NCBI RefSeq assembly: GCF_946478835.1
Contig: NZ_CAMLDV010000117.1
Coordinates: forward strand, 1 to 11,191
DNA: 11,191 bases
Source: an uncultured Bdellovibrio sp.
GTDB lineage: Bacteria > Bdellovibrionota > Bdellovibrionia > Bdellovibrionales > Bdellovibrionaceae
Direction: 5' to 3'
Shown here: positions 5,484 to 9,155 of the stretch, piece by piece
Layout of the letters: each line of letters begins with the position of its first letter
Position numbering within the stretch: position 1 is the first letter of the stretch
Notes under the pieces: generated by a model
Told to the model about the DNA's origin: nothing
What the model saw: only the letters and a program-made list of their open reading frames with translations
Database searches by the model: none
Translations under genes and position numbers: made by a program

Positions 5484-5702
5484 TCAATGAACTTTCAGTT
5501 CTGAATTTTCGCAAGCGCAGGAGGCTTGTTGTTCTTCTCGGCCTTCAAGGTAAGAAAGAAACGCGGCACTCCGAAAAGCCAGATCGTACAAAGTATCCAC
5601 GTCGATCACGAACTTTTCGTCGCCGAGTTTTAAAGCCACCCAATCTGTCGTCACTTCTTCGAAAGCAATTTGCTCTGCTTCGATGAACTTAGAAGTTTTC
5701 AT
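5484..5702 (-). CDS. 72-residue protein of unknown function, coupled to rpsD
   Basis: A small acidic soluble protein that I do not recognise. It has no signal peptide or membrane segment. It is rich in Glu and Asp, with a predicted mixed alpha/beta N-terminal part (WVALKLGDEKFVIDVDTL, about 21-38), and it ends in a polar tail with a Cys-Ala-Cys pair near residues 62-64. It is supported as a real gene by context: its ATG overlaps the rpsD stop codon by one base (TAATG), and GAGGGG sits three bases before the start. It is therefore almost certainly co-translated with the S4 protein, and a ribosome- or translation-related role is a reasonable but unproved guess. An 84-base gap to the next gene on the same strand shows no clear terminator. 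Confidence 0.72.
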   Translation of the reverse strand: MKTSKFIEAEQIAFEEVTTDWVALKLGDEKFVIDVDTLYDLAFRSAAFLSYLEGREEQQASCACENSELKVH

Positions 5703-6328
5703 TAGCCCCTCATTGAGTAGTAACCGATAACAAGTCCCGGTTCGAAGGCAAACGGCACGGCTTCTAAATTCGGCTCATCCGTTAAACGACCTTCTTCTTT
5801 ACCGCTGATTTCTTCTTTCGTCATGAATGTCGGCAGAGGAAGGCGCGGAGTTTGTTTGGCCTGCATGTAGACTTGGTTTTCGTAGGCTTCCGGTTTTAAA
5901 GTGATCTTGTCGCCCACGCGAATAATCTGCGATGCGATGTTCACTTTCTTTCCGTTCACCAAAACTTTTCCATGCGACACCAATTGTTTTGCAGCGGGAA
6001 TGCTCGGCGCAAATCCCAAGCGGAACACTACATTATCCAAACGTTTTTCCAAAAGGTTCACTAAAGCTTCCACCCAGTTTGTTGCAGCGGATTTTTTTGC
6101 TTTCACAATCATGCGGCGAAACTGTTCTTCGCGAATTCCATAGTGGAAGCGAAGTTTCTGTTTCTCTTCCAGTTGCAATGCGAATTCAGAATACTTACGG
6201 CGCTGTAAGCCATGCTGCCCCGGTGGATAAGGACGTCTTTCCAACGCACCCGCTTTTCCCATACCGGGAAGTTCCGTGAGAAGTCGTCTTTGTCTTTTAA
6301 ATCGCGCTGTCTTACCTTTTCTTTTCAT
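5702..6328 (-). CDS. rpsD: 30S ribosomal protein S4, cysteine-free form
   Basis: A 208-residue ribosomal protein S4, a primary 16S rRNA binder that nucleates assembly of the 30S body. Family signatures: ERRPYPPGQHG (30-40), YSEFALQLEEKQKLR (46-60), LLEKRLDNVVFRLGFAPS (92-109), and the S4 RNA-binding domain at about 96-156 with QLVSHGKVLVNGKKVNI. It ends with a typical YYS-type tail. The N-terminus (MKRKGKTARFKRQRR) lacks the zinc-binding cysteine cluster of many bacterial S4 proteins, and the whole protein has no cysteine, so this is a C-minus form. It stands outside the usual rpsM-rpsK-rpsD-rpoA-rplQ cluster, so it may be a second S4 copy; the window cannot show whether another exists. The start is set by GAAGGA about 9 bases upstream of ATG 6328. 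No strong promoter was found in the 150 bases upstream. The next gene overlaps its stop. Confidence 0.95.
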   Translation of the reverse strand: MKRKGKTARFKRQRRLLTELPGMGKAGALERRPYPPGQHGLQRRKYSEFALQLEEKQKLRFHYGIREEQFRRMIVKAKKSAATNWVEALVNLLEKRLDNVVFRLGFAPSIPAAKQLVSHGKVLVNGKKVNIASQIIRVGDKITLKPEAYENQVYMQAKQTPRLPLPTFMTKEEISGKEEGRLTDEPNLEAVPFAFEPGLVIGYYSMRG

Positions 6329-6459: not shown

Positions 6460-6488
6460 TTGAAAGTCATAGAGAGCTTTGTTAGAAC
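6460..6488 (+). promoter_or_regulatory. Sigma70-like promoter
   Basis: TTGAAA (6460-6465, five of six to TTGACA), a 17-base spacer, then TAGAAC (6483-6488, four of six to TATAAT). Transcription would start near 6495, giving a leader of about 17 bases that contains the ribosome binding site of the small periplasmic protein gene at 6512. It is the best promoter match seen in the window. Confidence 0.55.
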
Positions 6489-6511
6489 CCGCCCCAACAA
6501 AGGAAATGACG

Positions 6512-6871
6512 ATGAAAACATTTGTTGCACTTGCCACTGTTCTTTTCGGTTTCAAAGCGATGGCGGCTTCTGAAGTTCTTCTTAACTGCAAAAATATCGA
6601 TCAAGACGATATCACTTCCGCGATTGTTCGCACTTACGAAGACCCTGCAAAAAAATTCTCTTTAGAGTTGGTTTTGACTTCTCCAAAAGGTGAAGTTCAA
6701 TCTCTTGAAATTGATTCTGAAGATTACAATGAAGGTTGGATTGCTTTGCCTACTGATGATACGGCAGAACGCTATTTGACTCGCCAACAAGAAGGCTGGG
6801 AAATCTTCGGAACTATCGGACAAGTGAACTTCACGGCCGAAGCTCAATGTGAAGAGGCGCCGTTATACTAG
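6512..6871 (+). CDS. Small periplasmic protein of unknown function
   Basis: A 119-residue exported protein. MKTFVALATVLFGFKAMA is a clear signal peptide with likely cleavage after Ala18. The mature part of about 100 residues is acidic, probably beta-rich, and has two cysteines (Cys26 and Cys113) placed to form a disulfide linking its two ends. I do not recognise the family. The start at 6512 is chosen because AAAGGA lies seven bases before it and because the signal peptide begins there. An ATG at 6506 is too close to that site, and a TTG at 6479 would lie upstream of the predicted transcription start. The gene stands alone on the plus strand with its own promoter, diverging from rpsD and converging on the minus-strand small ORF. 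No terminator in its own direction is apparent: the hairpin downstream has its T tract on the opposite strand. Confidence 0.8.
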   Translation: MKTFVALATVLFGFKAMAASEVLLNCKNIDQDDITSAIVRTYEDPAKKFSLELVLTSPKGEVQSLEIDSEDYNEGWIALPTDDTAERYLTRQQEGWEIFGTIGQVNFTAEAQCEEAPLY

Positions 6872-6891: not shown

Positions 6892-7000
6892 AAAAAAATT
6901 AGGACGCGATAAAATGAGTTTTATCAAGGCGGGAGGAGGAAGGCGTACTTCGAGTACGTCGACGACGACCAACGAAGAGAAAACTCATTTTACCGCGTCC
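6892..7000 (-). terminator. Long-hairpin terminator on the minus strand
   Basis: Read on the minus strand, 21-base arms at 7000-6980 and 6922-6902 pair over their whole length, with one G-U, and the second arm is followed at once by TAATTTTTTT (6901-6892). This is the form of a Rho-independent terminator with an unusually long stem and a loop of 57 bases. It starts five bases after the stop codon of the 38-residue ORF and could end the whole minus-strand operon. The plus strand lacks a T tract after the stem, so termination should be one-directional. Confidence 0.65.
6902..7000. repeat. Nested inverted repeat, MITE- or REP-like
   Basis: Outer arms 6902-6922 and 6980-7000 match at 20 of 21 positions, the only difference being at 6909/6993, and share the core AAAATGAGTTTT. 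Inside lies a second hairpin, GGCGTACT-TCG-AGTACGTC (6942-6960), flanked by purine-rich GGAGGAGGA on one side and GACGACGACC on the other. An outer palindrome enclosing an inner one in under 100 bases suggests a dispersed intergenic repeat that has been recruited as a terminator. No target-site duplication is obvious at the ends. Whether it recurs elsewhere in the genome cannot be seen here. Confidence 0.7.
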
Positions 7001-7005
7001 GGGTC

Positions 7006-7122
7006 TTACCAGCTCGGTAGACGGCGACGGCGGTTGCGCTTGCGAACGGGAGCAGTTGTTCCTGTGCTCTCTTGATGTGTGTTCGTTGTTGGAGCCGTCG
7101 GGATTGTTTCTGTCTGCTTCAT
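7006..7122 (-). CDS. 38-residue arginine-rich small protein (putative)
   Basis: A small ORF of 38 residues. The first 25 residues are Thr-, Pro- and Asn-rich (it begins MKQTETIPTAPTT) and probably disordered. The last 13 are strongly basic and end RKRNRRRRLPSW. The start is well supported: AAAGGAG (7136-7130) lies seven bases before the ATG, one of the best ribosome binding sites in the window. The stop is followed after five bases by the hairpin terminator. No hydrophobic segment is present. The basic tail suggests RNA, DNA or ribosome binding, like very small ribosome-associated proteins, but no family is recognised. It lies 110 bases downstream of the DUF962 gene on the same strand and may be the last gene of that operon or have its own promoter; none is convincing. 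It could also be a regulatory leader-type peptide. Confidence 0.55.
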   Translation of the reverse strand: MKQTETIPTAPTTNTHQESTGTTAPVRKRNRRRRLPSW

Positions 7123-7129
7123 AGCCGAA

Positions 7130-7136
7130 CTCCTTT
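7130..7136 (-). promoter_or_regulatory. Strong Shine-Dalgarno site of the 38-residue ORF
   Basis: AAAGGAG on the minus strand with a seven-base spacer (TTCGGCT) to ATG 7122. It is what separates this small ORF from the longer overlapping frame, which would need a TTG start without a ribosome binding site. Confidence 0.65.
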
Positions 7137-7161
7137 CGTGCTAGATTAAGAACTCCAGCTA

Positions 7162-7174
7162 TTCTCTCAGAGAA
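7162..7174. other. Short perfect palindrome upstream of the small ORF
   Basis: TTCTCT-C-AGAGAA: six-base arms around one central base, about 40 bases before the start of the 38-residue ORF. It could be an operator or a small leader hairpin. The match is short enough to be chance. Confidence 0.25.
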
Positions 7175-7232
7175 GCAGGGCAGCAAGCGACGGTTTTAAT
7201 ATTAGTATTGAGTTATGAAAACGGGTTGAGAA

Positions 7233-7670
7233 TCAAAATCGGCCTTTAAATAGGAACTTTACGACCCACAAGGGCCCTACGAGCAAATACTGTAAGTCTT
7301 TGAAAAATGAAGGCTTTTTACCTTCGACCTTGTGCCCGTAAAATTGTCCAAGCCAAGCTAAAACAAATATAATGATGAGCGGAACCAGTGGATCTGTCAC
7401 TTGGCGGAGTGCGTAAAAAAGGACATAACAGATCGCTAATTGTGCCAACATCACGACGAAAGGCTTGGGTCCCAAAGTAAAATACCATCCTAAAGCGATC
7501 GCGATCAGAATTTCACCGACACGCAAAGGTCCCAAACTGTACGGAATTAAAATCAGAAGACCGACGATCGAAAAGAAAATCAGCGGCACGCAAATCTTAT
7601 GAATCCACTGATTCGTGGGATGCTGGTGGCTTTCACCATACTCTGCAAACCATTGATCCAGTGTTTTCAT
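7233..7670 (-). CDS. DUF962 / Mpo1-like membrane protein
   Basis: A 145-residue polytopic inner-membrane protein of the DUF962 (YGL010W/Mpo1-like) family. In yeast Mpo1 is an iron-dependent dioxygenase in the alpha-oxidation of 2-hydroxy fatty acids; that role for this protein is inference from the family. Conserved histidines are visible: an N-terminal HQHPTNQWIH (15-24), followed by a Pro, and QFYGHKVEGKKP (109-120) near the C-terminus. Between and after them are about four or five hydrophobic segments (roughly 29-46, 52-68, 70-88, 94-108 and 126-141). Start ATG 7670 gives MKTLDQWF; a GTG at 7676 would add two residues, and neither has a good Shine-Dalgarno sequence. It begins 17 bases after the cysE-like stop, so it is probably translated from the same mRNA. 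Confidence 0.88.
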   Translation of the reverse strand: MKTLDQWFAEYGESHQHPTNQWIHKICVPLIFFSIVGLLILIPYSLGPLRVGEILIAIALGWYFTLGPKPFVVMLAQLAICYVLFYALRQVTDPLVPLIIIFVLAWLGQFYGHKVEGKKPSFFKDLQYLLVGPLWVVKFLFKGRF

Positions 7671-7687
7671 TATCACATCGCGTGTTT

Positions 7688-8206
7688 TTATTTTTGCACG
7701 GCTAACGGTCCCACCATCGTCGCACCTGGTGGCACATCTCTGACAACAACGGCGTTAGCACCAATCATCGCTCCGTCGCCAACTGTGATCGGACCTAAAA
7801 CTTTCGCACCCGTTCCAATCAAAACTTTATTGCCTACAGTGGGATGACGTTTCACCGGATCAAATTTGAGTCCGCCCAACGTCACACCGTGAAAGATAAT
7901 GCAATCATCACCGATGACCGCTGTTTCACCGATCACCACCCCCATGCCGTGATCAATCACCAGGCGTTTTCCCACCGTGGCGCCTGGGTGAAGTTCAATC
8001 CCCGTGAGCAAACGAGAGATTTCAGCCACCAGTCGCGCTAAGAAATACCAATGATTTTTATAAAGAGCATGCGCGATTCTATGACAGAACAAAGCCTTCG
8101 GTCCCGGATACAAAATGGCGATCTCGATTAAAGATTTCGCCGCAGGGTCATAGTTTTTATATGTGCGCAGAAGTTCCAGGATACGATCAATCATTGAGTT
8201 TCTCAT
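7688..8206 (-). CDS. cysE: Serine O-acetyltransferase, short CysE/EpsC type
   Basis: A 172-residue enzyme that transfers acetyl from acetyl-CoA to L-serine, giving O-acetylserine for cysteine synthesis. After a helical N-terminal domain (about 1-68) comes a left-handed beta-helix of hexapeptide repeats. [11 protein letters not shown] (69-79) and [17 protein letters not shown] (83-99) hold the catalytic pair: His86, with Glu71 where E. coli CysE has Asp. VTLGG (108-112) and RHP (120-122) are further family marks. It is the short form (E. coli CysE is 273 residues), lacking most of the N-terminal domain. The usual C-terminal VPARV-type tail is replaced by VGPLAVQK. The start overlaps the exoribonuclease gene by 20 bases; an ATG at 8194 is an alternative giving an 8-base overlap. 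A different acyl acceptor cannot be excluded, but the serine acetyltransferase call is strong. Confidence 0.9.
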
Positions 8207-9155
8207 TTAGGTCTTCAAGCAGGAAGTACCGATCAAAAAGTTCATTGTAGCGAGACCACTTTTCACCCGAACCACGCTCGGCATCGACAATTGTTTTTAG
8301 TGTGCTCACTTTGCTGTCGAAATCATCCACCATGGCAACAACCATAGCTTCCAGGAATTTAGGTCTCTTCGGAGAACCGTATTCCAACTTTCCATGATGA
8401 CTTAGGATAATATGCTTACAGATGTCACGCAGTTCTTCGTTAAATCCCAAAATGCGAGATGCCTTTTTATCTATCAATTCACAGGCAATCTGCATGTGAC
8501 CGATCAAACGACCGCGATCCGTGTAAGAGATGCCATTATCGTAAGAAAGCTCCCACAGTTTTCCGATATCGTGAAAAATCCCGCCAAAGAGTAACAGATC
8601 GCGATTCAAAAATGGATAATGTGTACCCATGAAATCCATGATCTTGGAAATCGATAAGATATGCTCCAACAATCCACCAAGCCATGCATGGTGAATGGAT
8701 TTTGCCGCCGGAGCCTTGAGCATCATCGGACGAATTTCTGGATCTTCCAAAGTATCGAGAACAAGCTGGCGCAGATGATCGTTTTTCATTGTGCGCACCA
8801 GTTGCAGCAACTCGACCATCATGTCTTCGGTGTTCTTAGAAGCCTTCGGAATAAAATCTTCAAAATTCACTGTCGCAGAATCTACACGCTCCAGACGATG
8901 CACAATCAACTGTTTGCGATTCTGAAAAATCTGCACTTGGCCTTTGATTTTTAAAACGTCGCCGACTTCAAATTCGCGGGCAAGTTCATCCACGCGATCC
9001 CATAGACGCGCATCAATGCTACCGGAAGAATCTCCCAGTTGCAGTCCCATGAAGGGACGGCCATTCTTACCAACCCCCACTGTTTTTTCTTTCACGAGGT
9101 AACAAGAATCAACAGTGTCTTTGTCTTTAAGACTGTGAATACTTTGTCTTTCCAT
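8187..9155 (-). CDS. 3'-5' exoribonuclease, YhaM/CBF1 family (OB fold + HD domain)
   Basis: A 322-residue cytoplasmic protein. The N-terminal part is an OB-fold nucleic-acid-binding domain (about 10-92): [38 protein letters not shown]. The C-terminal part is an HD metal-dependent phosphohydrolase domain: His165 in GLLEHILS, the HD pair 195-196 in [12 protein letters not shown], His220 in [19 protein letters not shown] with His253/254, and an Asp in VDDFDSK (277-282). This order and spacing are those of YhaM and staphylococcal CBF1, which degrade RNA, and single-stranded DNA in some cases, in the 3'-5' direction; length agrees. The ATG overlaps the lipoprotein stop by one base, with GAGGTG about six bases upstream. 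It is the third gene of a coupled run. Confidence 0.93.

Follow-up and report, generated by a model that had tools for sequence, protein, structure and literature searches.

A conserved arginine-tailed microprotein gene of Bdellovibrio, its near-invariant leader and a terminator from a dispersed hairpin family

An 11,191-nt stretch of DNA from an uncultured Bdellovibrio sp. (the window) carries on its minus strand a 38-codon frame that is almost certainly a real translated gene, judged from its conservation among relatives. The product, which ends in a basic tail, is probably a nucleic-acid-binding microprotein. The gene has a near-invariant leader, and its terminator, to judge from alignment of the copies, is a member of a family of look-alike hairpins scattered through Bdellovibrio genomes. 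The features discussed here are as follows.

7006..7122, minus strand: arginine-tailed microprotein gene, 38 codons, stop TAA included (frame kept, purifying selection, C-terminal signature)
7123..7138, minus strand: near-invariant leader CGAAAGGAGTTCGGCT, with the Shine-Dalgarno AAAGGAG at 7130-7136 (conservation over 23 genomes)
7126-7138, minus strand: inverted repeat CGAA-AGGAG-TTCG around the Shine-Dalgarno (leader comparison)
7161..7189, minus strand: likely sigma-70-type promoter, CGCTTG (7184-7189), 17 nt, GAGAAT (7161-7166) (conserved blocks, by eye)
6900..7003, minus strand: 104-nt terminator hairpin, copy of the dispersed element (104.5 bits with model R1, this copy being among the sequences used to build the model; T run 6892-6898 next to it)
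6923..6979, minus strand: conserved 57-nt apical core of the element, CTCTTCGTTGG...CGCCTTGAT (alignment of copies)
6954-6966, minus strand: exact GTCGTCGACGTAC inside the apical core (sequence reading)
7233..7676, minus strand: Mpo1-like protein, upstream neighbour, context (Pfam search)
5702..6328, minus strand: rpsD (ribosomal protein S4), context (ORF list and Pfam search)
6479-6871, plus strand: convergent gene between the microprotein gene and rpsD (ORF list)

Direct reading of the minus strand gives the order ...CTAGCA CGAAAGGAGTTCGGCT ATG..., in which AAAGGAG (7136-7130) and a 7-nt spacer precede the ATG (7122-7120), and the 38 codons up to the stop TAA (7008-7006) translate as MKQTETIPTAPTTNTHQESTGTTAPVRKRNRRRRLPSW. 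The stop is followed by GACCC (5 nt), a hairpin whose arms are 21 nt long, and seven T in a row (6898-6892), which is the arrangement of an intrinsic terminator. The first-pass annotation had described the ribosome-binding site seven bases before the ATG, the hairpin with its T tract five bases past the stop and the 361-base gap around them, and all three descriptions agree with the sequence, with flanking frames at 6871 and 7233. A 271-nt segment spanning the unit has a folding energy of -85.5 kcal/mol (z -4.03, unmatched by any of 200 shuffles), a value dominated by the terminator. Two longer frames share the gap, one of 95 aa started by TTG (minus strand, 6899-7186) and one of 53 aa (plus strand, 6914-7075), and the window holds 114 frames of at least 30 aa; frame length by itself is no proof of a gene. 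The 53-aa frame, which runs through the hairpin, also encodes an arginine run opposite the basic tail, and this run is probably incidental.

The unit had been judged too tidy to be chance, and it is indeed genuine, conserved and protein-coding; what exceeds chance is its conservation, not its length. A search for homologues in relatives, as the annotation had proposed, found the frame without internal stop in 23 of 66 family-level genomes (E < 1e-5), and the match in G029 is 100% identical to the window peptide. The frame is likewise present in all six close Bdellovibrio relatives, among 11 loci fetched via the neighbouring protein (8187-9155). Frameshifts or stops accompanied by loss of the ribosome-binding site, which had been named as evidence against a gene, are absent from the 23 close genomes. 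The proposed check for selection shows that the frame is under purifying selection. In 23 aligned coding sequences (the window and 22 loci, with L018, which is near-identical to the window, L040 and L042 left out), pN is smaller than pS in 252 of 252 differing pairs, the identical pair L028/L029 having been dropped from 253. The pooled pN/pS is 0.32, with 0.23 in the last 14 codons and 0.38 in the rest; these values are uncorrected, with pS (0.61) near saturation and pairs that are not independent. Length differences preserve the reading frame, and the arginines are retained through different codons. The terminator sequence differs between species and is not conserved.

Profile searches extended the set to distant members, adding G030 and G040 from 143 class genomes and G037 from 368 phylum genomes, of which 30 matched at E <= 0.01. 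The G037 frame has 31 aa, MNLANNSQNSIESTQATTTSSRKRRRRLAGW, and is preceded by AGGAG. At the sensitivity of the profile search the microprotein is present in 26 of the 368 phylum genomes, a count that excludes the weak rows G334, G070, G356 and G134 (E 8e-4 to 0.006). Three loci (L040, L042 and L050) were kept as members because a Shine-Dalgarno and an ATG precede the frame, which ends R-R-L-x-x-W-stop. Seven were set aside as chance matches, L017, L041 and L043 from their sequence and L016, L037, L038 and L039 from the match tables.

In a set of 5.8 billion proteins the family comprises 69 clusters at E <= 1, with scoring limited to the 7975 candidates that had most words in common; a repeat search from a different alignment returned 60 rows, six of them new, and all six end L-x-x-W. 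Each of the 69 clusters closes with R-x-x-L-x-x-W after a variable Thr/Glu/Ser-rich part. The tryptophan is last, leucine is at -4, arginine at -7 and A, G or S at -2 in 69 of 69, and arginine is at -6 and at -5 in 68 of 69 each. This C-terminal constancy is partly due to the search design, since the profile favours that C-terminus, and the position of W as the final residue is not forced by the search. Cluster lengths range from 35 to 70 aa with an N-terminal part of varying length, composed of T (22%), E (11%) and S (9%) among others. The last 14 residues carry a net charge of +6 to +7 and the N-terminal part a median of -1; the tail of the window protein reads V-R-K-R-N-R-R-R-R-L-P-S-W-COOH. 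An aromatic residue besides the last W occurs in 5 of the 69 clusters.

The expectation that standard gene finders would miss the frame was wrong in part. Several clusters are labelled 'hypothetical protein' in public sets (Bb109J_c2894 of strain 109J, B. svalbardensis, HCB337), so the family is not wholly unannotated; cluster P0013, like the window's own protein, has no source record. The window protein has no match in Pfam and 18 members have none in NCBIfam; PHROGs gave one weak match (E 0.081, 1 of 18 members), and the best match among PDB sequences (E 0.74) covers the N-terminal part only. With no naming match in these four collections, nothing names a function, and profile and sequence searches placed the protein in no known small ribosomal protein or RNA-binding family. 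An AlphaFold model, made for the 41-aa L036 member (identical in sequence to the B. svalbardensis protein) and not for that of the window, gives no useful information (pLDDT 60.3, pTM 0.12).

Composition and the constant basic C-terminus are what suggest binding to the ribosome or to RNA. Bacteria have small basic ribosome-associated proteins such as bTHX, SRA/bS22, bL36 and RMF. The microprotein is like these in being short (25-55 aa) and strongly basic. Unlike them, it has its charge confined to the C-terminal 14 residues with a terminal Trp, lacks a match in Pfam, NCBIfam and PDB sequences and was found in 26 of 368 genomes within the one phylum searched. Arginine-rich motifs also occur in RNA-binding peptides such as lambda N and HIV-1 Rev, which the microprotein resembles, without further implication, in its short Arg-rich stretch with a Trp nearby. 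In contrast to them, its motif lies at the extreme C-terminus; homology to them is not seen, and RNA binding is putative. We give about even chances to the tail working by binding nucleic acid or a ribonucleoprotein.

The usual gene order is cysE-[mpo1]-microprotein gene-[secreted protein]-rpsD, in which mpo1 and the secreted-protein gene come and go, and in many genomes rpsD lies downstream on the same strand as the microprotein gene. In L031 the unit has the opposite orientation with respect to cysE and rpsD. No rpsD match was found in the 5.2 kb downstream in L005 (L013 is the same genome) or within 1.5 kb on each side in L040 and L042; when the four window neighbours were sought within the same 1.5 kb, L042 had none and L040 had cysE only. 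From the inversion and the missing rpsD the gene looks like an independent unit, which speaks against a cis leader peptide. In L025 (G012) the Mpo1-like gene beside the microprotein gene matches as two overlapping pieces, which suggests that it is frameshifted there.

The leader is near-invariant, a feature that the first-pass annotation had overlooked. The 12 nt before the ATG have a mean conservation of 0.996 in 23 genomes, as against 0.519 for rpsD in 22 genomes, and the third positions of codons 2-10 are similar in the two genes (0.725 vs 0.712). Only rpsD was used as a control, because the mpo1 leader, whose start is not set at the true start codon, is unreliable. Pairing of one part of the leader, GAAAGGAG, with a CCUCCUUUC-type 16S tail could extend over 8 nt and would leave TTCGGCT unexplained. 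The Shine-Dalgarno is flanked by inverted repeats that differ by lineage: CGAA/TTCG in the window, AGGAA/TTCCT in G030, AAAAC/GTTTT in G040 and AATGA/TCATT in G037, the last three lying outside the genus. Control leaders from four genomes have an inverted repeat of at least 4 bp in 8 of 98 cases and of 5 bp in 2 of 98, in a post hoc test for which the control GGA was chosen slightly more strictly than in the five test leaders. Outside the CGAA/TTCG core, L032 has AGT..ACT where most of the genus has AGC..GCT, a paired change; some genus members carry a mismatch there.

When ten leaders were folded with their context, the hairpin that places the Shine-Dalgarno in its loop appeared in the best structure of five (window, L014, L032, L030, L028) and was absent from that of the other five, the distant L040 and L042 included. 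The window leader has a folding z of -1.66, with 15 of 200 shuffles folding equally well; the remaining nine lie between -0.80 and 0.94. CsrA/RsmA-controlled leaders are a known class, and CsrA prefers an A at -2 of the GGA. As in these, the GGA of the microprotein Shine-Dalgarno lies between short inverted repeats, in four lineages, and csrA is in the genomes, the family scoring over the cut-off in 8 of 8 tested. Unlike them, the microprotein leader has a weak stem of 4-5 bp and the preferred A is missing in G037; the CsrA site is putative. The 13-nt leader motif stands at the microprotein gene in 7 of 7 genomes, and two genomes hold one further copy; the reversed motif has three copies in the seven genomes, about as many as the extra copies, and hence nothing points to a regulon with this motif. 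Translational control is plausible from these comparisons, and the leader may be a translational switch, a reading that we hold tentatively.

The GAGAAT of the window's likely promoter is replaced by GATACT in several relatives. By eye, L028, L029, L031 and L033 have about 30-35 nt of extra leader between the promoter-like block and the invariant Shine-Dalgarno block. We took G012 to be strain HD100 for comparison with the RNAs of Karunker et al. None of the eight attack-phase RNAs in Table 2 of that study covers the locus in G012 (PMC3627812). The FliA-type consensus given there is TTAAG-N16-CCGATA (Karunker et al., PMC3627812); inspection by eye upstream of the gene did not show it at proper spacing.

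That the terminator is a copy of a dispersed repeat had also escaped the first-pass annotation. The terminator hairpin of the window, used as a query, gave 32 matches in 7 of 9 genomes. Thirty loci were fetched and two (L064, L070) dropped as partial, which leaves 28 and the window copy, 29 in all. In alignment A4, which contains 24 of the 29 and omits five of unusual length or with insertions and so favours clean structure, RNAalifold predicts 29 pairs, and at 22 of them one or more copies have both partners changed. A conserved apex, TGCGTTGCTnCGTCGTCGGCGTAC..GTACGCCTTCCTCCTnGCGCCTTG, is flanked by arms that are locus-specific and covary. Model R1 matches 20 of 24 chosen genomes at E <= 0.01 (G004 weakly, E 0.004), and the element is present in 55 of 141 class genomes under stricter filters (E <= 1e-4), with up to 28 copies per genome (loci L052-L081, L094-L149). 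Insertion of the element into pre-existing terminators of differing size became less likely, since arm pairs sit equidistant from the apex across copies: columns 4-105 through 24-85 are paired in 14 to 24 of the 24 copies, the equal segment lengths coming partly from trimming of copies.

Rfam covariance models have 0 matches in the window at the gathering score, and viral contigs have 0 matches to one form of the apex. One archaeal-plasmid match (22% of the query, E 8e-3) was judged chance; a second copy found no match in plasmids and a third none in phages. A REP/CGTC repeat is a palindrome of 20-40 bp with an unpaired GTAG or CGTC tag at one end, as described in PMC3733652, whose main text has 0 occurrences of 'Bdellovibrio'. 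Like those palindromes, the element is dispersed, often lies just past stop codons and has in its apex CGTC before an inverted repeat (PMC3733652). Unlike them, it is 104 nt rather than 20-40 bp, which places it outside that class, forms one long hairpin with 29 predicted pairs and locus-specific arms, and is aligned with replication in G023. No earlier description of the microprotein or of the hairpin element was found in the literature, subscription papers and supplements being outside the scope of the search.

In G023 the GC skew is positive in 11 of 11 stretches at 0-2.0 Mb and negative in 9 of 9 at 2.2-3.9 Mb. The copies of this genome (L098, L116, L124-L149) lie on the plus strand in 13 of 14 cases below 2.05 Mb and on the minus strand in 14 of 14 above, so that 27 of 28 follow the replication direction; two of the 28 (2.02 and 2.09 Mb) lie in the unsampled stretch near the skew switch. 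Without the seven weak copies (E 5e-5 to 1e-3) the count is 20 of 21. Mechanically called ORFs in the sampled stretches are on the leading strand in 104 of 176 cases, and the binomial value for 27 of 28 is 8e-6, with copies taken as independent. With an origin near position 0, the strand as written would be the lagging-strand template. The element starts -10 to +13 nt from the stop of a co-oriented ORF in 15 of 28 cases; the ORF upstream points the same way as the element in 21 and the opposite way in 7, and a mechanical ORF crosses the element in 8 of 28. Agreement with the skew, scored by eye, is six copies for, one against and two unclear in G018 (9 of 11 copies), eight, none and four in G022 (12 of 13) and thirteen, three and one in G024 (17 of 23); the for and against counts omit copies near the switch or with a skew of about 0, and copies shared between relatives are not independent.

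At the microprotein gene itself, strong R1 scores are confined to the window (104.5 bits) and L014 (72.8 bits) among 26 sources; five other microprotein loci have weak matches of 21-26 bits, of which L022, L023 and L027 lie immediately downstream of the gene. L018 (G029) encodes the window's peptide with 3 of 117 coding bases changed and shares the aligned bases just upstream; the two terminators differ over most of their length, which indicates that the site changed recently in one strain, by insertion, loss, replacement or recombination. The idea of fast-evolving arms was dropped, since the arms are alike by eye in 8 of 10 orthologous copy pairs, whose best flank matches are mostly 78-96% identical. 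The L127/L080 arms are alike except at the outer 3' end, the L126/L081 copies differ greatly, as the window and L018 also do, and L141/L066 differ by an insertion. Paired arm changes are seen by eye in L130/L109 and L131/L076; orthologous copies are otherwise mostly stable.

These data bear on what the protein does. Docking of the C-terminus to a protein partner, in which the free carboxylate after L-x-x-W would be recognised and the arginines would make charge contacts, fits the W at the very end and the A, G or S at -2 in all 69 clusters, together with the variable length of the N-terminal part. We consider it unlikely, because a net +6 to +7 in 14 residues looks, in our judgement, more like nucleic-acid contact, and because no constant partner gene is known to accompany the family, with none of the four window neighbours near L042 and cysE only near L040. 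The short, cationic product could also suggest a secreted or membrane-active peptide, which is very improbable: no hydrophobic stretch or signal sequence was seen by eye, the N-terminal part is polar, and aromatic residues other than the final W occur in 5 of 69 clusters.

Two further alternatives were weighed. The conserved C-terminus adjoins the stop and then a terminator hairpin, and rpsD follows on the same strand in many genomes, as a regulatory leader peptide would require if stalling at the C-terminus governed the hairpin and hence expression of rpsD or another downstream gene. That reading is quite improbable, since the frame and rpsD are separated in the window by a convergent gene (6479-6871, plus strand), and the two strains with the same peptide have terminators that differ over most of their length. 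Nor does the frame hold a fixed position upstream of a regulated gene, being inverted in L031 and lacking an rpsD match around L005/L013, L040 and L042 (1.5-5.2 kb). A small regulatory RNA with an incidental frame would explain the near-invariant leader, the promoter-like block and the terminator, and is barely credible beside the codon-level selection and the arginines kept via different codons.

The explanation that we prefer is an autonomous gene whose 38-aa product has an RNA- or RNP-binding tail, with control through the leader and a terminator of its own; as a whole, it stands at even odds. Expression would be driven by the gene's own promoter, as we infer from the conserved blocks. The Thr/Pro/Asn/Glu-rich N-terminal part is probably disordered, and the C-terminal basic tail would most likely bind RNA or a ribonucleoprotein such as the ribosome. 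The leader would present the Shine-Dalgarno in the loop of a small hairpin, where a trans factor, CsrA or the microprotein itself, could block translation, and the intrinsic terminator would end the transcript.

A bolder version, improbable as a whole, would make the microprotein a lineage-specific ribosome- or RNA-binding switch of predators, whose R-rich L-x-x-W tail reads structured RNA, including its own Shine-Dalgarno-loop hairpin (autoregulation), and aids the change between attack and growth; its terminator would represent a class of dispersed hairpins, oriented with replication and so far undescribed, in which the apex is functional and the arms are made afresh or corrected per locus on the lagging-strand template. 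For the biology of the predator, the microprotein enlarges a poorly known small proteome by a conserved family whose C-terminal signature is constant, and its leader offers a possible translational control that can be tested. The element exposes a class of hairpin repeats with a conserved apex, covarying arms and, in G023, a replication-strand bias. With these features, strain comparison can test how such repeats arise, whether by ssDNA-based spread, template switching or co-option of terminators.
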